Positions 10,956 through 63,937 of a DNA stretch of 64,000 bases are shown here, piece after piece. A model generated the notes under the pieces. The model was not told the DNA's origin. It made no database searches and was given only the letters and a program-made list of their open reading frames with translations. Every line of letters starts with the position of its first letter. Position 1 is the stretch's first letter. Source of the stretch: Pedobacter riviphilus. GTDB taxonomy: Bacteria > Bacteroidota > Bacteroidia > Sphingobacteriales > Sphingobacteriaceae. The stretch is taken from NCBI RefSeq assembly GCF_014692875.1, contig NZ_CP061171.1, forward strand, positions 3,100,001 to 3,164,000, given 5' to 3'. Made by a program: the position numbers and the translations under genes.

Positions 10956-11726
10956 ATGACAACATCTTTCAAGCCCATTTTTTATACCCTATCGATTATT
11001 ATATTTCTGGGATGTAATGGCAAAAAAGAGTTGAGCCCAGTAATTCAGCCTGCAGGTATTCTTCAGAGCAGTGATCAGATCTCAAAGTATATCATGCAAT
11101 ACGTCAACTTCGACTCTGATTTTAGTGCGTTTGACACACAAGGAAAATCGATGGATAAGCAAACATTTCTCAACGAAGTACTATCCGGCAGTTACTTACC
11201 TTTAAGGCTAAAAACCCAAACAGGTGAAAACTCATATCAGCTGCACAAAATTAATGTGCTAATTGAAGACTCGCCAAAATATTATCTGATAGACCAGGCC
11301 CGTCAGGGTCTTTTTCAACTTTCGCTCGTCGGCAAGCCCGCACCAAAGTTTGAATTTGTAGATTTAGCAGGACACAAATACAACAACCAAAATACCAGGG
11401 GAAAAATCCTTGTAATGAAATTCTGGTTTATAGGCTGTGTCGCCTGTGTACAAGAAATGCCTGAAGTGAATAAAATAGTTGATCGCTACCAGGACCGTAA
11501 GGACATTCTTTTTGTTAGTCTTGCATCAAACAAAGTCGAACCATTAAAGAAATTCCTTAAGCAGGTAACATTCAAATATCAAACTGTAGCAGATGCCGAC
11601 CATTACATGATCGATTCTATCGGTACCAAGGTATTCCCTTCACATCTGATTATTGGCAGGGACGGCAAGATCAGGAAATTCACGCTACAGTATACCGAGG
11701 TTGAAGAGCTGCTAAAAACCCTTTAG
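10956..11726 (+). CDS. TlpA-like thioredoxin-fold lipoprotein
   Basis: A 256-residue predicted lipoprotein (lipobox FLGC, Cys20). Residues 1-120 are an uncharacterised N-terminal region. From about 125 a TlpA/AhpC-type thioredoxin fold begins (GKPAPKFEFVDLAGH). The redox motif is CVAC (C161-C164) in FWFIGCVACVQEMPE, and the cis-proline region is FPSHLIIGRDGKI. Proteins of this type are periplasmic or envelope-anchored disulfide reductases or oxidases. The client is unknown. The gene is the only intact one between the two direct repeats at 10.6 and 12.4 kb, with fragments on both sides, so it may have arrived as part of a mobile segment. Confidence 0.8.
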   Translation: MTTSFKPIFYTLSIIIFLGCNGKKELSPVIQPAGILQSSDQISKYIMQYVNFDSDFSAFDTQGKSMDKQTFLNEVLSGSYLPLRLKTQTGENSYQLHKINVLIEDSPKYYLIDQARQGLFQLSLVGKPAPKFEFVDLAGHKYNNQNTRGKILVMKFWFIGCVACVQEMPEVNKIVDRYQDRKDILFVSLASNKVEPLKKFLKQVTFKYQTVADADHYMIDSIGTKVFPSHLIIGRDGKIRKFTLQYTEVEELLKTL

Positions 11727-11755
11727 CAATGAAACAAATTGGAAACGGGAATAGC

Positions 11756-12112
11756 CTAGAGCAGCAGAAACCATTTTAATTCCGCCATATTATTTACCTT
11801 GACACTATTTAAGGTAGACTTCATAGCTTTTAGATTCGCCGGCCTACCGTTTAATTGTTGTTCAAATATTTTGGGATCCAGCTTCACTTCGGTAACTTTT
11901 GTTGCAAACCAGTTTGTATTATCATGCGGTAAAGCTACTCCCAAAATCATCCCTGGCAGACCAGAAAATAATTCGGGGCCTCTCTGAGAAAGTATTTTTT
12001 CAGTAAAAAAGGCAACGACATAAGTCGAGTCAAGGATCAAACTGTTCGCTCTTCGACAACTGTAGCCCGCTATATCTCTTACTTCATCCGTAAGCGGTCT
12101 TATCCGTCTATA
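11756..12112 (-). pseudogene. C-terminal remnant of a GLPGLI family protein
   Basis: About 118 codons are open with no usable start and a stop just upstream. The sequence has the GLPGLI family pattern: RDIAGYSCRRA, then STYVVAFFTEKI, then FSGLPGMILGV and a C-terminal basic tail. GLPGLI proteins are secreted Bacteroidota proteins of about 250-300 residues with no known activity. Only the last 40 percent or so is present. The 5' end is missing, and a terminator hairpin lies directly beyond. A TTG at 12038-12040 could be called as a start, but the family pattern extends upstream of it. This is a truncated gene, not a small protein. Confidence 0.65.
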
Positions 12113-12119
12113 ACTTTAC

Positions 12120-12148
12120 AATGCCTCCTTAATAAATAAGGAGGCATT
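12120..12148. terminator. Intrinsic terminator hairpin
   Basis: An 11-bp perfect stem (AATGCCTCCTT with AAGGAGGCATT) surrounds a 7-base loop and is flanked by A/T-rich sequence. It lies upstream of the GLPGLI remnant on its strand, so it probably belongs to a transcript that is no longer complete. Confidence 0.65.
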
Positions 12149-12152
12149 TATT

Positions 12153-12695
12153 TACGTTTTTTAAAAAATTTGATCAAAAAATGAATGTTCGATAAATGAT
12201 ATCATTTTGATTTTGAGCTGAGTAGTTTGACCATTTTTCAAAAACAATGTCCTCTACCGCAGCACCAGAAATAAAACAAACTAAAAAACAAACACTTACA
12301 TAAATTCAGAATCCATTTCTAGCATCAATTTATTTTTTTCTTTGACATTAGTTATCGAAACTATTTTCCTAATATCCTCAATTAAAGTGTGTGTCAACGG
12401 AACATGGTGGAGCTCCTCACGAGACAAATCAATTTTTATGCTGTTTGTCTCGTTTTTTTATTTTACGCAACTAACTATTAATCAGACGTATTAACTCAAT
12501 CTTTTCGTTCAATCACCAGCTTCATTTTAAATAAGCTTTCAATGTCTTAAAAAAGCCGACTAATACCACCGCTAAAAAGCAGTATCAAATTTAAAAATTT
12601 GCTGTCTTAGAAACTAAGCTTTTAATTATAACTTAACATTACTTTCTGAACAGATCTAACATACAAGGACTCAACGTTCTCATACTCGGTTTACC
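12153..12695. other. Gene-free scarred segment
   Basis: Apart from direct repeat copy 2 there is no coding signal. It also contains a terminator-like pair of inverted sequences inside the repeat (12419-12453). The region separates the GLPGLI remnant from a membrane-protein gene whose own 5' end is unclear. Confidence 0.4.
12409..12514 (+). repeat. Direct repeat copy 2
   Basis: Near-identical to 10589-10694 over about 100 bp, including the tRNA terminator hairpin (ACGAGACAAA with TTTGTCTCGT), TTTTACGCAAC and the terminal CTTTTCGTTCAATC. No tRNA body precedes it; only a weak trace of the acceptor 3' end (GGAGC) is left. Together with copy 1 it brackets a 1.7-kb segment. Confidence 0.8.
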
Positions 12696-14093
12696 TTGAA
12701 AAATGGAGAAATTTTCATCATATTCCCTTCGTGGGTTTTCTCTTTTTTGGGTATGGGGTTTTCTCCGGTTCTTGCCTCCGCCTTAGGTACTTCAGCGCTT
12801 TTCTTCATTATTACAAGTTCGATCAGCGCGCACCAGTACCGAAACTGGTTGTTTTGGGGCATACTCATTACCTTTATGCTGCATCCTGCGTTCATTTTTT
12901 TCGCTGTATCAGGAAAAAGTTCGTACATGGTGCTCATCTTCTTCTATCTTTTTGTAATGAGCATTTTCCGGTATTTCAGCACCAATACATCTTACCATAT
13001 TTCGGTGGCCAGTATCTATTTCACACTGCTTATTTTCTGTTCGTTCAAGTTTTCCTGGCTAATGCTGTTTATCCTTCCCATTATTTTTTTTGTAGCCCTT
13101 CAATCCATGACAGTTGCAAAAAACGATCCAATGGACAAGATCGCAATCGCATTCAATACCAAATCGATACGGCGTAAACTGGCTAATAAAACCCTGGCCG
13201 TATACCTCATCATATTTGCCCTGCCGATAACTGCGATATTGATTTTCAGGATGCTGAACCAGACCTACACCGGAGATGCCGATTATTATTTAAACAGTCC
13301 TTATGCAAATTATAGCGCAATTACAGATCAGACAGATAATCTCAATAATTTAGCTGATAACAAACTGGGGCGTATATTTCCTGAGGTGCATTTTTTGGTA
13401 ACGGTAAGGATATTGATGTTTGCGCCCCTGTTACTGCTCTGCCTGGGCATTTTCAAGAGCATCAACCGCAACATCTTTATGGTTTTTTCCCTTTTCTTCT
13501 TCATGGAATTCTTAAAGATAAAATATCCCAATGTTTATATCCCCATTCATTTTTACGCAGCCTTTATATGCCTTTGTTGGGCTGTTATAGCAAACGCAAA
13601 AAGTACCAGAACACTTCGGTTCAATAAACATTTTTATTTCTCGATTATCATTTTACAGCTTGTTACCGCATACCTTACAATGAATGCAAGCCCTCTGCCT
13701 GAAGAAAAAAAATACCAGGGCGCACTTGTATCCATAATGACGCAAAAGCCGCTTGAAAGAGACGATGATGAAAAACTATCCAGCTACATCAAAAAGATCA
13801 GCGCTAATGATGGCATACTTGCAGATGATGCCAATGCCTACCAAATCATAGCATTAACAGGGTCTGCCAAAATTTTTCTGACTCCAGGCGAAAATAGGTT
13901 TTTGGCCGCAGTTGCTCAACCTGTAAACCATGTATCCTACATATTGGCAACCAAAAAAGAAAGCCAATACGATTCCTTTGGACTATTGAATAACAATACG
14001 GTACAAACATTACGTTTAAAAGGAATTTCGCTGCATCCGGTCTGCTCCAATAAAAACTGGATATTGTGGCATATCAAAAACGAGAAAAAATAA
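12696..14093 (+). CDS. Multi-spanning membrane protein, possibly 5'-truncated
   Basis: About 465 residues with roughly ten hydrophobic segments in the first two thirds and a soluble C-terminal region of about 120 residues (from PLPEEKKYQGAL). The pattern of many helices followed by a small soluble tail resembles bacterial glycosyltransferase-C-like or dolichyl-mannosyltransferase-like membrane proteins, but no diagnostic motif is visible and I do not assign a function. The only start is a TTG at 12696. The frame stays open a further 12 codons upstream without an ATG, so the true N-terminus may be missing. It ends head-to-tail against the GH31-like fragment on the other strand, with no spacer. 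Confidence 0.6.
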   Translation: MKNGEIFIIFPSWVFSFLGMGFSPVLASALGTSALFFIITSSISAHQYRNWLFWGILITFMLHPAFIFFAVSGKSSYMVLIFFYLFVMSIFRYFSTNTSYHISVASIYFTLLIFCSFKFSWLMLFILPIIFFVALQSMTVAKNDPMDKIAIAFNTKSIRRKLANKTLAVYLIIFALPITAILIFRMLNQTYTGDADYYLNSPYANYSAITDQTDNLNNLADNKLGRIFPEVHFLVTVRILMFAPLLLLCLGIFKSINRNIFMVFSLFFFMEFLKIKYPNVYIPIHFYAAFICLCWAVIANAKSTRTLRFNKHFYFSIIILQLVTAYLTMNASPLPEEKKYQGALVSIMTQKPLERDDDEKLSSYIKKISANDGILADDANAYQIIALTGSAKIFLTPGENRFLAAVAQPVNHVSYILATKKESQYDSFGLLNNNTVQTLRLKGISLHPVCSNKNWILWHIKNEKK

Positions 14094-14363
14094 CCATTCA
14101 GCGATACATACATCGGTTTCATTGCTTTTCAAGTCACCATCCGGAACACTTCTTACCCTAATAATTGCCAGATCTACAAATTCAACCCTCAGCGTCTTAT
14201 GTCCCGAACGGAGCAACAATCCGTTAGAGATCCTGGTGGCCTTAAAGGCAGATTGAGCAAATGTAACCGTAGCTGCAAGAGAAAATATCAGTATGCATAT
14301 TATTGTGGATGCGGAAAATTTTAGTGTTGCGTTAACATTCATCTGCCAAACCAGTTTTTTCAA
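14016..14363 (-). pseudogene. N-terminal fragment of a secreted glycosidase (GH31-like)
   Basis: An ORF starting 3 bp after the GH95 stop codon encodes a signal peptide (ICILIFSLAATVTFAQ) and then a beta-sandwich-like opening: NGLLLRSGHKTLRVEFV, then IIRVRSVPDG. This resembles the N-terminal domain of GH31 alpha-glucosidases and alpha-xylosidases. Similarity stops near 14095, exactly where the opposing membrane-protein gene ends; beyond that the frame is merely the antisense of that gene. About 85-90 percent of the enzyme is therefore missing. It was probably the last gene of the SusCD operon. GH31 assignment is tentative because no catalytic region is present. Confidence 0.5.
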
Positions 14364-57043: not shown

Positions 57044-57310
57044 TTACTTCACGGATTGATCAAACCCGTCGCTGAAGAACTCAGCAAGGCTAATATCCAA
57101 TGCTGAAAGCACTTTGAGCAAAGATGAGAAATACAGATCTTCTCCATTTTCATATCGCCAGAGCTGGGTATGGTTAAGGTCATGTTTAAAGGCAAATTTT
57201 TCATAGTTCCGTTCCCCTTTAGCTTCCCTAAGGGAACGAATCCGTGCACCAAGCAATTTTAAAACTTCCTTTATATGCTCGCTCTCCTCTTCGTTTTTAG
57301 CTCTACTCAT
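57044..57310 (-). CDS. XRE-family helix-turn-helix regulator
   Basis: An 88-residue protein with one Cro/C1-type DNA-binding domain (about residues 17-78): IRSLREAKGERNYEKFAFK, HTQLWRYENGEDLYFSSLLK, ALDISLAEFF. The size is that of a bare domain with no ligand-binding part. It is divergent from the alpha-CTD-like gene at 57430, leaving a 119-bp shared promoter region that it may control. Genes of this kind often accompany integrated elements in Bacteroidota. Confidence 0.85.
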   Translation of the reverse strand: MSRAKNEEESEHIKEVLKLLGARIRSLREAKGERNYEKFAFKHDLNHTQLWRYENGEDLYFSSLLKVLSALDISLAEFFSDGFDQSVK

Positions 57311-57429: not shown

Positions 57430-57612
57430 ATGGAAAAGGAGGAATTATTACAGACCCCTATTAACAGGCTTGGTTTTAGTACTGAATTCTGTAAAGCTTG
57501 TGATTCAATGCATTTCAGCACATTGAAGGACATCACATCTCTTTTGCCTGAACGACTGATCAATAAAAAAGGGTTTAGCTATAGCTGGCTGGGGAACTCA
57601 GCGCATATTTAG
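57430..57612 (+). CDS. Small helix-hairpin-helix protein (RNA polymerase alpha-CTD-like), C-terminus frameshifted
   Basis: As read it has 60 residues: TPINRLGFSTEFCKACDSMH, then TLKDITSLLPERLINKKGFS and SWLGNSAHI. The pattern (a first helix, TL-DI, GFSYSWLGEL) is that of small Bacteroidota proteins related to the DNA-binding C-terminal domain of the RNA polymerase alpha subunit. Adding one G at the G run 57591-57594 changes the tail to WLGELSAYLDKRGLLHLLQRP and the stop to 57650, a much more typical ending of about 73 residues. The 3' end overlaps the convergent RteC-like gene. Function unknown, presumed regulatory. Confidence 0.6.
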   Translation: MEKEELLQTPINRLGFSTEFCKACDSMHFSTLKDITSLLPERLINKKGFSYSWLGNSAHI

Positions 57613-58743
57613 ATAAGAGAGGACTGTTGCATTTATTGCAACGGCCATAGGAAAAAAATTACGGTTGATCCGCAGGACCATACGCTGTAACAGGTCACGC
57701 ACACGTGCGGCAGTATGTTGGTCAATACTATAAAATTCTTTACTCAGGCTTCCAGGAGAAATAACAGCTTGTCTTTTACTTTGATAGTGACCAGCGAAAC
57801 CTTTAAAAATAAACTGAAGATTCTGAGTGGCGAAAACACTTTCTTCAAACAATAAACGGATTAGACAGGAAAGATGTGCAACAGACAATTCCAATGGTAT
57901 CTTAGGAATAGCAACTTCACTCCTCTTGCTCAAAGACTTTTCTGTTAGCAGAATTTCTTCCTGGAGCCAATCTCCCAACATAATTTTTAGAGATGGCCAT
58001 GAAATATTATAAGCTATGTGTTTCACTTCAGGAACAGATGCCACCGTAGCCTTTTGATTATGTAGATAGTTGATTTTGTCGTCTAAACAAATAAAAGCTT
58101 CCAATTCCTTACGGATCTTATTCTGTCGGTAAACTAAAAAAGCAAGGTGGTTAAAATTAGCGCTGGAAAGAAAAGAGATGAGATTGTTATCTGCCTTGTC
58201 CGAAAAGATATCAATCAAAAGCATTTGCTCAATAATATACTTAGAATAGGATATTTCCCGAAAAGAATACCGCCTGGAGTAATTGATCTCATTGAGTTCC
58301 TCTACCCATTTACAGACCGAAGTTTTCAGCTCAGCGCTTATTTGTGCTTTTTTAAGTTTACTTTTCAGCAGCCGAACATCCTCGCTCCATTGTTCAATTG
58401 AGCGTTGATGATAGGCTATAGGCGCCATAGCATCATTATTAAAATAGTTCGGAAAATATTGCTTTAAATGGTCAAGGAGGAATAAAGGGTCAGTAGTTTT
58501 TTTTGAAAGTTCAATATCTGCCATATTAAAAAGGGTATCCGAAATTTTCAGGATACCCTCAAGCTGATAATAAAAATAACGCCTTAAGCTTTTATCAGAA
58601 ATCTCCGAGAAAGCCATCATTTTCCATCCTTCAAAAAGCCGTTGGGATTTTGATTGGAAAGTCGATTCTACGATAATATCGTTACCTGAATTTCCCCATG
58701 TAGAGAACAGTTTCTCGATATCATGTAATTCATCTTTAAGCAT
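57598..58743 (-). CDS. RteC-like protein
   Basis: A 381-residue mostly helical cytoplasmic protein. The C-terminal third (IPLELSVAHLSCLIRLLFEE, then ISPGSLSKEFYSIDQHTAAR and VRDLLQRMVLRINRNF) resembles the C-terminal region of RteC, which regulates excision of Bacteroidota conjugative transposons. The N-terminal part (LHDIEKLFSTWGNSGN, LRRYFYYQLEGILKISDTLF) is less conserved. No other transfer genes are in the window, so it is either an orphan or has another job. Start at 58743 is the first ATG of the frame; the next gene upstream is the small peptide. Confidence 0.5.
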   Translation of the reverse strand: MLKDELHDIEKLFSTWGNSGNDIIVESTFQSKSQRLFEGWKMMAFSEISDKSLRRYFYYQLEGILKISDTLFNMADIELSKKTTDPLFLLDHLKQYFPNYFNNDAMAPIAYHQRSIEQWSEDVRLLKSKLKKAQISAELKTSVCKWVEELNEINYSRRYSFREISYSKYIIEQMLLIDIFSDKADNNLISFLSSANFNHLAFLVYRQNKIRKELEAFICLDDKINYLHNQKATVASVPEVKHIAYNISWPSLKIMLGDWLQEEILLTEKSLSKRSEVAIPKIPLELSVAHLSCLIRLLFEESVFATQNLQFIFKGFAGHYQSKRQAVISPGSLSKEFYSIDQHTAARVRDLLQRMVLRINRNFFPMAVAINATVLSYLNMR

Positions 58744-58773
58744 AAGATGTGATCAATTCCAATACCTTTGTAA

Positions 58774-58917
58774 CTAATTTTTTAACAAATGGGTACTGGT
58801 TATACTGATTGTAAGGCTAGTCGTATCGGTATCACGATTTTGCAGCTTGGCACCCATTGTCTTAAAGTTGCTCACTCTAATAGTTTTTTTCTCTGGAAGT
58901 TTAATTGAATTTTTCAT
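58774..58917 (-). CDS. Candidate RiPP precursor peptide (Ser/Thr-rich, Cys-free)
   Basis: A 47-residue peptide with no annotated domain. It has a Lys-rich leader-like N-terminus (MKNSIKLPEKKTIRVSNFKT), a short linker (MGAKLQNRD) and a tail in which nine of the last 19 residues are Ser or Thr (TDTTSLTISITSTHLLKN). There is no cysteine, so a classic lanthionine cannot form within the peptide. It lies 104 bp from a divergent LytS/LytTR pair, which is followed by the convergent LanB-type dehydratase gene. Size, composition and position match precursors of class I dehydratase clusters in Bacteroidota, where the leader is recognised by the dehydratase and tail Ser/Thr are dehydrated. The 5' region is AT-rich with no Shine-Dalgarno. 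Function is inferred, not shown. Confidence 0.65.
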   Translation of the reverse strand: MKNSIKLPEKKTIRVSNFKTMGAKLQNRDTDTTSLTISITSTHLLKN

Positions 58918-59021
58918 GATTTTATATTTTTTATATTAAATTAAGAGTTTGCGAAGTTGCAAGGATATTTATTACAGATTCGTAAAGTTTTGGAGTAAAA
59001 AAAGCTTTCATAGTACAGGAT

Positions 59022-60104
59022 ATGTTAAAACTAGTGGTAAAAAAGTTTAATAAAAATTTCTTGTTGGTACACATTATCTGCTGGGCTTCGTTCATCACCT
59101 ACGAACTGACAATGGTCTATATTGCCTTAGGTACCTTAGAAAGACCTTGGGTTTATATAGTATTTTATACGATTAATATTTCATTTTTTTATCTATTTGC
59201 CGCATTACTGAATTATGTTTTCAAAGAAAGGAAACCTCGGTATTTCAAAGGTATCCTGGGGTACATTTTGCTGTTTAGCATATACATGATAACTAAATCA
59301 GTTGCCGATTATCTGATTAATAGTTCGCCTGCAAATCATTCCAACACCATCCTTTATGTGGAAAGTTTCTTACAGCGAAATATCATGAGAGCATTATACT
59401 TCTCTATTTTGGCCATGTTTTATTCGTTGGCAGGTCGCATAGCTTTTTTCAAAAGACAGACGCTGGAGGCGGAAAAGCGTCAATTAATTATTGAAAAAGA
59501 AAAAGCAGAGTTAGAAAACCAGCTTACCAAATCCCGTAACGCCTATCTGCAACAACAGATTAACCCCCATATGCTCTTCAATGCGCTCAACTTTGTTTAC
59601 AACAGCGCCCAAAAATATTCCGATGATGCCGCTAATTGCATTTGGCTCCTTTCGGAGATCATGCGTTTCAGCCTGGAGGAAGCAGGTTCGGATGGAAAAA
59701 TTAAACTGGATAGAGAAGTTGAGCAGATTGAAAATCTCGTGGCCATTAACCGCTACCGGTTTAAAGAGCCGCTATATCTCAAGCTAGAAATGCATGGTGA
59801 TTTCAGTCGCTATAAAATAATTCCACTGATCTTGCTTACACTGACAGAAAACCTGTTCAAACATGGGAACTTGACCGAAGTTACCTCTCCGGCTGTACTG
59901 AAGTTAACCACAAACGAAACAGGACAACTAACCTTTTACAGCAGAAACTTAAAAAAATCAAAGAACGGACATCCGCGTCAGCGAAAAGCACTGGGTCTAC
60001 AAAACATCCGGCTTCGCATGGATTCATTTTACAAAGGCAATTACAAGCTGGAAATCAATGAGCCTGGCGAATTTTACGAACTCACTTTAACCCTTAAATT
60101 ATGA
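59022..60104 (+). CDS. LytS-type sensor histidine kinase
   Basis: A 360-residue membrane kinase of the His_kinase (LytS/YehU) class. Four hydrophobic spans occupy residues 10-135, followed by a coiled segment (140-175). The phospho-acceptor box is LQQQINPHMLFNALNFV (His183). The ATP-binding part has the N-box (TLTENLFKHGN, E276-N277) and a late glycine motif (ALGLQNIRLRMDSFY). It couples to the downstream LytTR regulator by an ATGA overlap. The stimulus is unknown; the neighbouring peptide and dehydratase genes suggest it may sense the peptide product or cell-envelope stress. Confidence 0.9.
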   Translation: MLKLVVKKFNKNFLLVHIICWASFITYELTMVYIALGTLERPWVYIVFYTINISFFYLFAALLNYVFKERKPRYFKGILGYILLFSIYMITKSVADYLINSSPANHSNTILYVESFLQRNIMRALYFSILAMFYSLAGRIAFFKRQTLEAEKRQLIIEKEKAELENQLTKSRNAYLQQQINPHMLFNALNFVYNSAQKYSDDAANCIWLLSEIMRFSLEEAGSDGKIKLDREVEQIENLVAINRYRFKEPLYLKLEMHGDFSRYKIIPLILLTLTENLFKHGNLTEVTSPAVLKLTTNETGQLTFYSRNLKKSKNGHPRQRKALGLQNIRLRMDSFYKGNYKLEINEPGEFYELTLTLKL

Positions 60105-60838
60105 GCTTAACCTGCTATATCATTGATGATGAATATCATTCAATTGAAGTACTCGCTAAGTACATCAATCAAACCCCAGGCCTGGAACTGGTTGGTAGCT
60201 CCACCAACCCGCTTTTAGCACTGGAAGAATTATGCACTATCCAAACTCCCGATATTGTTCTTTTAGATGTCGATATGCCACAGCTCAACGGCCTTGATGT
60301 GGCAGACCTTATCGGTTCAGCAAGCAACATTATTTTCACAACCTCCTACCGCGAGTACGCACCTGAAGCATTTGAAAAAGATGCAGTAGATTACCTGCTA
60401 AAGCCCATTAATTACGCCAGGTTTTTAAAGTCAGTTACCAGGGTGCGCTCAAACCTTACCAGTCAGGTAGATCAAATTGCTGCTAGCCCATTTTTTTTCG
60501 TCAAAAGCAACATTAAAGGAAAATTTAACCGGATCACCATCGCAGAGATCCGTTATATCGAAAATATTGGTAACTATATCATTATCCACATGAATGACGA
60601 AAAAGTAACCACTTACATCACTTTAGCGGAAGTCCTTTCCAAGTTGCCTGTTGAAGGTTTTTCCAGGATCCATCAGTCTTATATTGTCAACCATGCAGCT
60701 ATTCGTTCATTGGAATACGCCCAGGTAAGGCTAAGCGGAGGAGTGAGTGTTCCGATTGGAGGGACTTACCGCACCGCCTTCCGGGAAAAAATCCAGCCCG
60801 CTTTACTCATCAGTAAAAGAGACAAAAGTGATCACTAG
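60101..60838 (+). CDS. LytTR-family response regulator
   Basis: A 245-residue regulator. The receiver domain has acidic residues D9-D10, phospho-acceptor D56 in IVLLDVDMPQLNG, the Thr switch at FTTSY and K101 in YLLKPINYARF. A LytTR DNA-binding domain follows (about 130-240): FFFVKSNIKGKFNRITIAEI, RYIENIGNYIIIHM, FSRIHQSYIVNHAAI. Its start overlaps the kinase stop, and its own stop overlaps the end of the convergent dehydratase gene by 4 bp. Likely targets are promoters in this locus, but no repeated binding site was identified. Confidence 0.92.
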   Translation: MSLTCYIIDDEYHSIEVLAKYINQTPGLELVGSSTNPLLALEELCTIQTPDIVLLDVDMPQLNGLDVADLIGSASNIIFTTSYREYAPEAFEKDAVDYLLKPINYARFLKSVTRVRSNLTSQVDQIAASPFFFVKSNIKGKFNRITIAEIRYIENIGNYIIIHMNDEKVTTYITLAEVLSKLPVEGFSRIHQSYIVNHAAIRSLEYAQVRLSGGVSVPIGGTYRTAFREKIQPALLISKRDKSDH

Positions 60839-63800
60839 ACTGAAGATTTTCCGCGGGCCAAAAGCGAAGCATTATACTTTTGCAGGCAATAGTAAACGAG
60901 CAACTCCTGTTGCCTTTGTCTAACGGAAAAAGTCCGGTTCAGTTGCATATGTACCAGATCGGCTAATAGCACCATTTTTTTATCATTTGAATAGCTGCTG
61001 GTAAGCCCGTTTAAAACTGACATCTGCTTTAAAAGCGGCAAAAGGTGCTTCGATAATTCTTTGCTTTCCAGCAAATCCGCTATTAATAATTTCTTCTCCC
61101 GGTATTTCTCATCCATTGCGATCTTAAGCGTTTTATCTGCCCTGAACTCCGCCATAAACCGGTCCTTCACCTTACCAAGGTAATCCAGAGCATCAGCCAG
61201 AGACGGAAAAAAGCAGCTGACCATGCGATAGGCAGTAAGTGTGGCCAGTTCAAATTCGCTAAGTTGAAGGGAACTGTTCCCCCTTAAAGTTAACGCAAAC
61301 GCAGCAAGGTGGCTTCCCACGCAAAAAAGTTCCTCAACATGTGAAATGAGACCGGGGCCATACCGTTCGAGTTCTCTCCGGTAGGTATCTCCCTGGAAAT
61401 CCCGGATGAGTTTATCATGTCCGGATGATTCAATTTTTTTTCGCAAGGCCACGAGTATTGCGCCAAGATCATGTTCTTCCGCCTGAATACGCAAACGCAG
61501 GTGATAACCTTTATCGCTGTAGCGGATGAAAAACCAATTTTTGATCCGCTTTTTCTGTGCTTTGATGAACGGAAAAATCACCTTACTAAGGATTTCTTCC
61601 GAAGCACGTGGAATGCAGAAAATTTTAAGGTAAAGCCAGTTACTCCCCATTAAAAAGTCGCGTTGCTTTTCGCCGTAAACAGTAGTACTTTCCTTTTTTA
61701 AGGGTTTATAAATATTATTTTCGTGGGCAAGAAAAGCAATCATCTGTCCTGCAAGTGGCTTTTTACCAGACAGAACGGAGCGGTCTGGCAATAAATATTC
61801 CTGAATGGTTATCTGCTTTAAACCATCAATGCACTGCAGAAAAAACCTCACCTCAGTGGAATTGGCCAGATCAAAAACCAACTGCTGGTCTGTTGCCCCT
61901 ATGGTGATGTGCCGGGGCAGGTGGTGCTTTCTGCGAAAACCATCCAGGGTTTTGAATGGATCAACGTTATCTCGTGCAGTTAATGGCGCTATGTCAGATT
62001 CCTTAAAATTCCATTTCGCCAGGCAGAGGATCACCTTTCCGTAACAGACCCGTGGATAAAAAGTAAGGCCTGGAAAAAAGTTCTCCAGGCTAAATGACAG
62101 TCCTGCCTGTACCCCCTGAAATTGCAGATCGCACAATAGCCGGAAAACCGGCGAATGGTTATTTCGAAAGTTATAGGCCGTCGCCAGCCGGGGAATTACT
62201 CTTTTGTTCAACTTAGACGACTCTAATATCAATTCATCCCCTTTAAGAGAAAGCATGAGTTCGCCTGGCAGTACCAGGTTTTCAGCTGGCTGCGAAGGAA
62301 ATACATTCAGGGGTATCTCGTGAGCATAAATGGGCTTGCGACGATTGATATTGTCCACATGGCTATCAGACTGCTGGGCAATGTCGGCAAAAACAACTTC
62401 TGGGTTTGCAGTAGTTTCCTTTGCGGCAAGCTCGCGGCAAAACTGGTGTACCGGATCACTGAAACAGGAAAACCTTCCGATCAGCGAAGCGGCGGTTACC
62501 CCACCCGAACTTTCGATGATCAGGTGCTCGCCCGTCGAACGGTACATGAGCGCCTGCGTCTGGGGCAAAGGCAATACTGCCTTTTTATGATTTTCCAGTT
62601 TAATCACATCACCTTCACTGATCTGCAGGGGCGACCAGGGATCGCGAAGGGTATCCCCTATCCAGAGCCTGAAGATAAACTGCTGGGAGGCATGCCATCC
62701 AAGTGTTCTATTTTCATCTTCCGGTTCAGGGAAAGGAATATTCTCCAGGATATCCTGGTCAGGCATGGATGGCGCCATCTCCCCATAATGCAGCCCTCCA
62801 TCGGGATCTAAGGCCAGCAGCAAAGGCACCCTTTCCTGATCAAAGCGGGCACGGAAATCACGGATAAAACGCGACAGATCAGCAGGCTGCTCAGCGTTTG
62901 CCAATAACTGCAGCACATGGACTGCTTTGGACAATTCTTCCTGTTCAGCGCTATCTGGCCCCCAGTGTTATTTGGCCTTTCCAGTGCTGCATAAAATGGC
63001 TGGCCAAAAGGCTTATTTTCCTTTGCAATTTTACCGACATCCCTGGCCAAAGCCGACAGATCGGCTTCACCCAATAAGGGAATCCTGATGTAATTTTTCC
63101 AGAAATTACTCCAGCCAGGTAAGCCAGGGAAGCGCTCACTCACCTCATTGCTGATTACTCTTCCCTGAGTGCCATTGAAAACCGCCCCTGCATCAAGCAG
63201 AAACCCGATGTATTCTTCTGCATCTTCTGCTAAACATTCAGCGTGCTGCACAATCCAGCTCAGCAGTATTTTTTTTGAAATCTTCTTTGAAGATAAAAAT
63301 GAAAACAGCTGTACATTAAATTTTACGGCTGCAATCCCTTCCAGAGAAAAACTAAACCGGCCCTTATCATCCAAAGATGATTTCGTATAGCGGAAAACGT
63401 CATTAAACCGGTACAGCGTAGGGTTGACCATTAATCCGTCTGGCAGATCAGCCTCCGCCCTGTTCTTCAATTTTCTCAAAAAATTCTGGTCAGGCCATAA
63501 ATGAAGGATTGACTCATCGCTTCCGGCAAGCCTGACCTGACCACCGCTTGCCCATTGCAGTAAAGTGAAGGAGGAGAAGCTTCCAAAAGGGGTTGGCCGG
63601 AAACACATCCGGTTATAATACTTATAAAGGGTATGTTTTTCCTTATCTGCTAATTTATCGAAATCAAATTCCTTTTTTTCAAGCAGCGCATAAAACGCTG
63701 CGCTTGCCAAAAAAACTGCATTGCGAAAAGCCTGTTCCTGCAACACTTCCGGCAACCGCGAGAGATCATAGCCTGTAAAGCTATAGTACGGTGCCCGTAA

Positions 63801-63848
63801 AAATAACTGCGGTAAAAACCGGTATAGCATTGACTGACTTTCTTTCAT
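60835..63848 (-). pseudogene. lanB-like: Fused LanB-type peptide dehydratase, frameshifted at a G run (probably intact in vivo)
   Basis: Two frames (63848-62808 and 62934-60835) combine into one protein of about 1,004 residues; adding one G at the plus-strand C run 62959-62963 joins them as NNTGGPDSAEQEELSKAVHV. The N-terminal two thirds is the glutamylation domain of class I lantibiotic dehydratases (FLRAPYYSFTGYDL, YNRMCFRPTPFGSFSSF, RFIRDFRARFDQERVPLLLA). The C-terminal third is the thiopeptide-type/SpaB elimination domain (WLYLKIFCIPRASEEILSKV, WFFIRYSDKGYHLRLRIQ, YRRELERYGPGLISHVEELF). The enzyme uses glutamyl-tRNA to dehydrate Ser/Thr of a leader-bearing peptide. Both halves being present marks a complete LanB rather than a split system. 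A LanC cyclase is not seen in the window. Its gene is divergent from the partial gene at the right edge and convergent with the LytTR regulator. Confidence 0.85.
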
Positions 63849-63937
63849 CTCTTCGTCGCTTAAAAGGGTATACTACCCATCTCATACTGTTTTGGCTTTT
63901 CTATTCGCCCTTAATTTGTTTCTATAATTCTTTTACC

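Follow-up and report, generated by a model that had tools for sequence, protein, structure and literature searches.

What would a lanthipeptide dehydratase of the LanB type make where the short peptide encoded near it lacks cysteine, no LanC-like cyclase lies at the locus, and a sensor kinase and a response regulator stand between the two genes? The question is raised by a stretch of the Pedobacter riviphilus genome, hereafter the window (64,000 nucleotides, bases 3100001-3164000 of a 5.8-Mb single-contig genome). By comparing the locus with its relatives we found that the peptide sits in a swapped allelic block, together with the membrane part of the kinase and part of a neighbouring gene. 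We propose, with a probability of about 0.55, that the LanB-dehydrated, lanthionine-free peptide is a signal sensed by the adjacent kinase, and that its specificity is exchanged as a block. A preliminary description of the window, prepared from the sequence and its open reading frames (ORFs), had picked out a 47-codon frame, a LytS/LytTR pair and a dehydratase, and all three held up:

58774..58917, minus strand: Cys-free precursor peptide of 47 aa (leader KLPxKxT, Ser/Thr-rich tail), from its frame, homologues and nonsynonymous (dN) versus synonymous (dS) substitution
58777..58833, minus strand: tail of the peptide, residues 29-47, nine Ser/Thr; predicted dehydration site, from sequence and LanB linkage
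59022..60104, plus strand: LytS-type histidine kinase, PF06580 His_kinase match (Pfam)
59022..59471, plus strand: membrane sensor of the kinase, residues 1-150, four hydrophobic segments; variable in the locus comparison
60101..60838, plus strand: LytTR response regulator, Response_reg and LytTR matches (Pfam)
60835..62934, minus strand: C-terminal frame of LanB, with the end of the glutamylation domain and the elimination domain (PF04738, PF14028/TIGR03891)
62808..63848, minus strand: N-terminal frame of LanB (PF04738); the reading frame is broken between the two parts

The peptide (MKNSIKLPEKKTIRVSNFKTMGAKLQNRDTDTTSLTISITSTHLLKN) has a Lys-rich start, nine Ser/Thr among its last 19 residues and no Cys. 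Searched with a LanB fragment, 116 of 145 genomes of the genus gave a match; 14 LanB loci in 13 genomes matched at 39-90% identity, and the remaining matches were at 35% or less. A homologous short ORF lies beside LanB at all 14 of these orthologous loci, which we call type A (the peptide search itself placed homologues near 12 of them); it follows the kinase in 13 and comes straight after LanB in L085. The consensus reads KLPxKxTQ ... TDTTTxTTTxITSTHIF, with D31 invariant and K6, L7, P8, T33, T42 and H43 kept in at least 90% of the peptides, and dN was below dS in 14 of 14 peptide pairs of at least 55% identity (the pairs are not independent). Since a homologue stands beside every one of the 14 LanBs and dN<dS in every pair, the presence of a peptide gene at the LanB locus is confirmed as more than chance, in line with the co-occurrence on which the preliminary description had staked its reading. 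Its remark that the gene is too short for ordinary gene calling did not survive, as a homologue, J7E50_07745, has been called in Pedobacter sp. ISL-68. A profile search of 5.8 billion proteins returned 52 relatives of the type A peptide, which all lack both a Pfam domain and a named function; those bearing names in public records are mostly from Pedobacter. No Pfam or NCBIfam model fits the peptide, and single family matches at E 0.04-0.13, each to one peptide member, were taken as chance. Named records place the orthologous LanB loci in Pedobacter, Mucilaginibacter, Pontibacter and two unassigned metagenome-assembled genomes. A scan of named genomes, partly the same genomes again, gave 38 loci; 30 had a match to the peptide profile at E<0.05, mostly beside the kinase, and eight had none (L129, L130, L136, L139, L141, L143, L149 and L150). 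A plasmid collection held no match to the peptide (protein mode) or to the 6.3-kb locus (near mode), which leaves a plasmid origin unsupported.

The enzyme is complete at the orthologous loci. The two overlapping LanB frames, split near a homopolymer run, together make one full-length LanB with glutamylation (PF04738) and elimination (PF14028/TIGR03891) domains. The preliminary description had called the enzyme frame-broken, which is true of the window genome and of no other among 15 loci compared: each of the 14 orthologous loci encodes LanB in a single unbroken frame of 1004-1034 aa. The break, private to this assembly, may be a mutation, in which case the window copy may be silent, or an assembly error. 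We mapped ten residues, which we take to be catalytic in one or other half-reaction of NisB, by phmmer alignment to NisB. Eight (R83, R87, R464, R784, R786, E823, R826 and H961) are matched by the identical residue in 14/14 type A LanBs and in 23/23 LanBs of a second family, type B, described below; counterparts of T89 and D121 are found in 13/14 and 23/23, respectively. Because all ten have counterparts, eight without exception, dehydration by the orthologous LanBs is plausible, and both glutamylation and elimination should work in them. Of the proposal that the peptide is the LanB substrate, the conserved, LanB-linked precursor stands, and dehydration of its Ser/Thr is plausible. Peptide aminoacyl-tRNA ligases (PEARLs) are LanB relatives that lack the elimination domain; a PEARL-like use of this LanB was ruled out, the elimination domain and its residues being present.

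A similar arrangement is found around the second LanB family. The P. riviphilus genome carries a paralogous LanB (33% identical; L011, 16992-19790). A separate LytS/LytTR pair adjoins it, and the kinase and regulator genes flank a Cys-free ORF of 47 aa. We sampled 23 type B loci from 23 genomes, this one included, mostly as best-scoring LanB matches rather than by random draw, and in 23/23 a candidate peptide ORF lies beside the kinase, with LanB and LytS/LytTR. Twenty of these peptides form one clear family (MKxQ..KLxKKTVFVYKxxKxxNN..T.PTGD.S....TSxI); those of L104, L112 and L113 are divergent and were chosen by eye. Precursor copies number one to seven per locus, and near-identical copies stand in tandem in L101 (five, 12674-13457) and L110 (seven, 11479-12707). 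No NCBIfam model fits the type B peptide; aligned with type A by hhalign, it gave a probability of 43% and an E of 2.5e-4. Its profile matched 93 of the 145 genus genomes at E<=0.01, with 59 reaching E<=1e-10, and 92 of the 93 have a LanB match; the one type B peptide among the 29 LanB-less genomes is in G100, an 80% complete draft (E=1.8e-7). Across the class, 40 of 395 sampled genomes matched the second LanB at E<=1e-20.

Both peptide types occur without the cyclase that would close lanthionine rings. A LanC-like (PF05147) match was found in 52 of the 145 genus genomes and was missing from 64 of the 116 LanB-positive ones, from 52 of the 93 with a type B peptide (30 of the 59 strong ones) and from 8 of the 14 type A genomes, P. 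riviphilus counted among the 14. LanB and the peptide thus persist without a lanthionine cyclase in a good part of both sets. In the five other type A relatives that have a PF05147 match it is on other contigs or far away, and the only LanC-like matches of the P. riviphilus genome lie ~0.9 and ~1.0 Mb from the locus, in agreement with the earlier remark that no LanC-like cyclase is visible there. The window peptide, with no core Cys for (methyl)lanthionine, falls outside the class I lanthipeptides, and with Cys and LanC both absent no lanthionine should form. Cys is present in 10 of 69 unique peptide ORFs, five times outside the tail (once upstream of the last 20 residues, and in four ORFs solely within an extension of the frame that precedes the peptide), and in 4 of the 52 database relatives; as background, Cys is absent from 26% of the 3447 ORFs in these loci that are 43-55 aa long. 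The Ser+Thr fraction is 0.44 in the last 20 residues versus 0.16 before them in type A, and 0.33 versus 0.18 in type B. We also read 20 of the LanB places listed class-wide (one from the genus, four from the family): LanC was missing at 5/7 with LytS and LytTR within 3 kb and present at 11/13 without the pair (Fisher p=0.022, post hoc and uncorrected for kinship). Peptides picked by eye were Cys-rich with GG leaders at the LanC loci L188, L197, L200 and L201, and Cys-free at the LytS/LytTR loci L182, L183 and L186. The P. riviphilus genome has two LanB+LanC loci besides (L011, 6492-10882; L013, 6234-13891), the latter with a Cys-bearing small ORF at 13964-14155 and a gene that we take to be PCAT-like.

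The type A locus has a mosaic structure, which extends to the gene left of the peptide:

57598..58743, minus strand (as the peptide): Y381, a 381-aa neighbour gene (ORF)
58009..58743, minus strand: Y381 residues 1-245, variable together with the peptide, the remainder being conserved (locus comparison)
57950..59450 (approximate borders), no strand: allelic block of kinase sensor, peptide and N-terminal part of Y381 (DNA identity)

Compared with L074, which has the nearest LanB, the window locus is 90% identical in the C-terminal part of LanB, 91% in the regulator, 94% in the kinase domain and 85% in the rest of Y381, versus 43% in the sensor (residues 1-150), 36% in the peptide and 37% in Y381 residues 1-245. 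With L077 the corresponding values are 86, 92 and 88% for LanB C-part, regulator and kinase domain, 79% for the sensor, 67% for the peptide, and 87 and 86% for Y381 residues 1-245 and the rest. In a profile computed in 150-base steps, DNA identity to L074 is 0.79-0.97 across LanB, regulator and kinase domain, drops once and continuously to 0.44-0.65 at ~59450-57950, and returns to 0.83-0.95; identity to L077 stays at 0.75-0.99 over that interval. The LanB sisters L080 and L081 show the same drop (0.35-0.57). A tree of LanB C-part, regulator and kinase domain joins the window locus to L074 (support 85/87) and L080 to L081 (100/98), and the sensor tree joins the window locus to L077 (97/94) and L080 (84/93). 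Approximately unbiased (AU) tests rejected window+L077+L080 on the core data (p=4.9e-7), window+L074 (4e-83) and L080+L081 (2e-5) on the sensor data, and window+L074 on the Y381 N-part (2e-43); on the Y381 C-part, window+L077 was not rejected (0.41). Y381 itself has no convincing Pfam or NCBIfam match, and none of its 102 database homologues has a named function. Its AlphaFold2 model (pLDDT 77.5) is all helical and has no PDB match at E<=0.001; a relation to RteC (PF09357), suggested by its C-terminus, was tried and is unsupported, the Pfam model giving no match. That sensor, peptide and Y381 N-part vary as an allelic block points to signalling; the preliminary description had noted neither this block nor the second family.

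The peptide also follows the sensor across loci. We computed partial correlations of pairwise identities at fixed LanB identity, with p values from permutation of loci, so that kinship is accounted for solely through LanB. Over 14 type A loci (the window and 13 others; L085 was left out, having no kinase), the identity of the peptides tracks that of the sensors (partial r 0.71, p=0.0005), is weakly related to the kinase domain (0.24, p=0.04) and not significantly to the regulator (0.18, p=0.09); for Y381, over 11 loci, the N-part gave 0.69 (p=0.0005) and the C-part 0.27 (p=0.06). Over 20 type B loci (the divergent L104, L112 and L113 left out), the whole peptide gave 0.54 with the sensor (p=0.0005), 0.09 with the kinase domain and 0.26 with the regulator (p=0.06). 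The type B tail carries this signal (sensor 0.58, p=0.0002; kinase domain -0.13; regulator 0.06), and the leader is correlated with the regulator (0.44, p=0.002) and the kinase domain (0.42, p=0.003), its relation to the sensor being weak (0.16, p=0.049). In type B the codons of the leader separate those of the tail from the sensor, so adjacency alone fails to explain the covariation of tail and sensor. Tail types correspond to sensor groups across lineages of LanB, TSWI marking 4/4 of one group and TWIFGL 2/2 of another, and loci with 95-96% identical LanBs and unlike sensors carry unlike tails (L096/L093, L107/L100 and L099/L103; in the first pair LanB is 96% and the sensors 56% identical). 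As in pheromone-type two-component systems, then, the sensor is variable and covaries with the peptide, and the kinase domain and regulator are conserved.

As a control we compared LytS kinases of the P. riviphilus genome and G130. From 40 kinase places, 29 gave usable frames (11 with no recognised motif were dropped), and 20 frames formed 10 reciprocal pairs, eight of them non-LanB pairs with none near a LanB of the P. riviphilus genome. Kinase-domain minus sensor identity was 0.45 and 0.21 in the two LanB-linked pairs, and 0.45, 0.26, 0.16, 0.12, 0.08, 0.03, 0.02 and 0.00 in the controls. Sensor divergence alone is therefore insufficient as proof, two of eight pairs away from LanB diverging strongly too, and the argument rests on the covariation of the tails and on the block that includes Y381. 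A further LytS kinase (L242, 7769-8800; L243, 8202-9236) is 98% identical in its kinase domain and 54% in its sensor between two genomes; a conserved 93-aa ORF and no LanB lie alongside, perhaps as another recognition system.

Together, these observations suggest the following course of events. A full-length, glutamyl-tRNA-dependent LanB would recognize the KLPxKxT leader of a Cys-free, Thr/Ser-rich precursor of a ribosomally synthesized and post-translationally modified peptide (RiPP) and, judging from its active site and its linkage to the peptide, would dehydrate Ser/Thr of the tail to dehydroalanine (Dha) and dehydrobutyrine (Dhb), with no LanC involved and no lanthionine made. After a presumed cleavage and export, the modified tail would be a secreted signal, most likely sensed, as the covariation indicates, by the neighbouring LytS-type kinase through its membrane part; the kinase would act through the LytTR regulator. 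Strains would swap sensor, peptide and often the Y381 N-part as a specificity block, as in comQXP pherotypes or in agr of the Firmicutes, a hypervariable block of peptide and sensor. A broader proposal, to which we give somewhat less than even odds, is that Pedobacter and its relatives have two parallel LanC-free LanB signalling channels. In each, a LytS kinase would respond to a polydehydrated, lanthionine-free peptide as its pheromone, the specificity groups being exchangeable, and a lantibiotic-type enzyme would make the signals of what would be a class of peptide quorum sensing in the Bacteroidota.

Several observations weigh against the proposed course of events. At L085, no kinase, regulator or Y381 was recognised beside LanB and the peptide, and three satellite loci with peptides of the same kind (L089, 8818-8961; L090, 8525-8668; L091, 8660-8791) have kinase, regulator and peptide with no LanB in the 18 kb examined. 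Neither an exporter nor a leader protease was recognised at the locus by reading ORF lists by eye and by BLAST with a small reference set, one PCAT included; not every ORF was profile-searched. In five of the 69 peptide ORFs the tail contains Cys, close to the end in two and within TTTC or TGTC in three. The covariation may be partly linkage, as the genes are adjacent and as leader and tail of type A show much the same correlation with the sensor (0.59 and 0.62). Nor are tails exclusive to sensor groups, as TSFI is found in 7/7 of a third group and in 2/2 of a fourth, L095 and L106 have a common tail type and different sensor groups (sensor identity 0.55), and the type A tail end STHIFNQ occurs in two groups. 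Variable sensors are not unique to LanB loci, the control pair L202/L203 equalling the LanB-linked gap of 0.45 and another reaching 0.26. The block is not always exchanged whole: in L074-L076 and L079-L082 the sensor differs (0.49-0.64) and the Y381 N-part less so (0.70-0.90), and the tree of the sensor disagrees with that of the Y381 N-part. Finally, the AU clades and block borders were picked after inspection of the data, and L086 and L087 are long branches.

The strongest competing explanation is that the product is a bacteriocin-like RiPP, a dehydrated linear antimicrobial whose LytS/LytTR pair autoinduces it as NisRK does nisin, the blocks then representing peptide variants, each with the sensor that fits it. 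Many of the known LanB products are bacteriocins, the allelic diversity would fit an arms race, and an outer-membrane SusC/SusD pair lies nearby; lanthipeptides can also stimulate their own production, according to the part of PMC10301443 consulted. However, the searches described above, with the same limits, recognised no immunity gene or exporter in the orthologous loci, and a spread over 93 of 145 genus genomes would be unusual for a bacteriocin. Among the LanB places read class-wide, a PCAT relative lies near 1/7 with LytS/LytTR and 5/13 without, numbers too few to carry much weight. We hold this explanation to be unlikely. Somewhat less probable still is a RiPP unit of LanB and peptide in which recombination drags the peptide along with sensors whose diversification has some other cause. 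The adjacency of the genes, the equally divergent LytS pair away from LanB and the like behaviour of type A leader and tail would fit such hitch-hiking, whereas the type B tail covaries with the sensor far more than the intervening leader (0.58 versus 0.16) and like tails accompany like sensors over different LanB lineages. That the peptide is instead a small protein partner of the kinase, for example an inhibitor, with LanB acting elsewhere, would suit the satellite loci, but is very improbable given the LanB match in 92/93 peptide-positive genomes, the leader/tail build with its uneven Ser+Thr content, and the lack of another short conserved ORF beside the type A LanB, although none was systematically searched for.

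The signalling proposal leaves the surroundings of the locus to be described:

57044..57310, minus strand: small helix-turn-helix (HTH)-like gene after Y381, in 8/14 orthologous loci (BLAST)
63860..63893, minus strand: conserved element upstream of LanB (by-eye alignment)

The upstream element (AAAACAGTATGA..GGGTAnTATACCC) was seen in 13 of 14 loci compared by eye, the window included and L085 outside the comparison; it is missing in L087 and present in L086 despite a LanB only 42% identical, and is a candidate operator. An operator common to LanB and the peptide was considered and dropped: both genes have conserved stretches upstream, but these are unlike when compared by eye (no motif statistics) and give no ground for a shared LytTR site. 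The preliminary description had looked to the sequence right of 64000 for cyclase, protease or transporter genes. Reading 26 kb there as ORF lists by eye, we found what we take to be a MauE-like gene, a small ORF, and then SusD, SusC and TlpA-like genes, the LanC-like matches lying elsewhere. Most of the 14 type A loci have this set (L009, 8791-15728) next to LanB, and a similar one lies beside the LanB-less satellites L089 and L090; the MauE-like, SusD, SusC and TlpA-like genes are possibly what the LytTR regulator controls.

If the proposal is correct, the Bacteroidota would have a peptide quorum-sensing class that we did not find described in the literature searched, LanB would gain a role apart from lanthionine rings, and sensor/peptide pairs for a test would be in hand (L096/L093, L107/L100 and L099/L103). 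LanB genes with neither LanC nor a Cys-bearing precursor alongside might also be explained in this way. In the titles and abstract openings of the open-access literature we found no description of Cys-free, LanC-less LanB peptides or of LanB-made pheromones in Bacteroidota. The known class I lanthipeptides of this phylum, of the pinensin type, have LxLxKx5L leaders (Walker et al. 2020, PMC7268733, in the part consulted). They resemble the present system in a full-length LanB with the NisB active-site residues, a short Lys-rich leader and the phylum itself; they differ from it in that here there is no LanC, mostly no ring-forming Cys, no GG site seen and no PCAT recognised, and a LytS/LytTR pair instead. 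That survey, as far as its consulted portion tells, sought precursors near LanC-domain proteins and left out some Cys-free peptides, and for that reason is not expected to list these.

Among signalling systems, CA_C0082 of Clostridium acetobutylicum, a LanM-like relative of lanthipeptide synthetases, likewise lies beside a peptide quorum-sensing system; in the sections of PMC10301443 at hand it is without conserved catalytic residues and is an effector dispensable for making the signal, whereas the LanB active site here is intact in the orthologues. From the portions of PMC10301443 and PMC8895600 consulted, agrBDCA shares a LytTR-type regulator and a peptide gene close to the kinase. It differs in that here no AgrB-like protein was recognised, the kinase is of the PF06580 type and the peptide is predicted to be dehydrated, the agr signal being a thiolactone. 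The comQXPA system of Bacillus, as described in the part of PMC4008528 consulted, has a variable N-terminal kinase part, predicted to interact with the peptide, and a conserved cytoplasmic part. It shares with the present locus a short peptide, here presumably modified, beside a kinase, a variable N-terminal membrane part and specificity groups. Its modifier is a prenyl transferase, while here the presumed modifier is LanB and lies outside the variable block, the pair is LytS/LytTR, the peptide is on the strand opposite the kinase and the host is Gram-negative. On present evidence, comQXPA would be the best analogue of this locus in its working, and not a relative.

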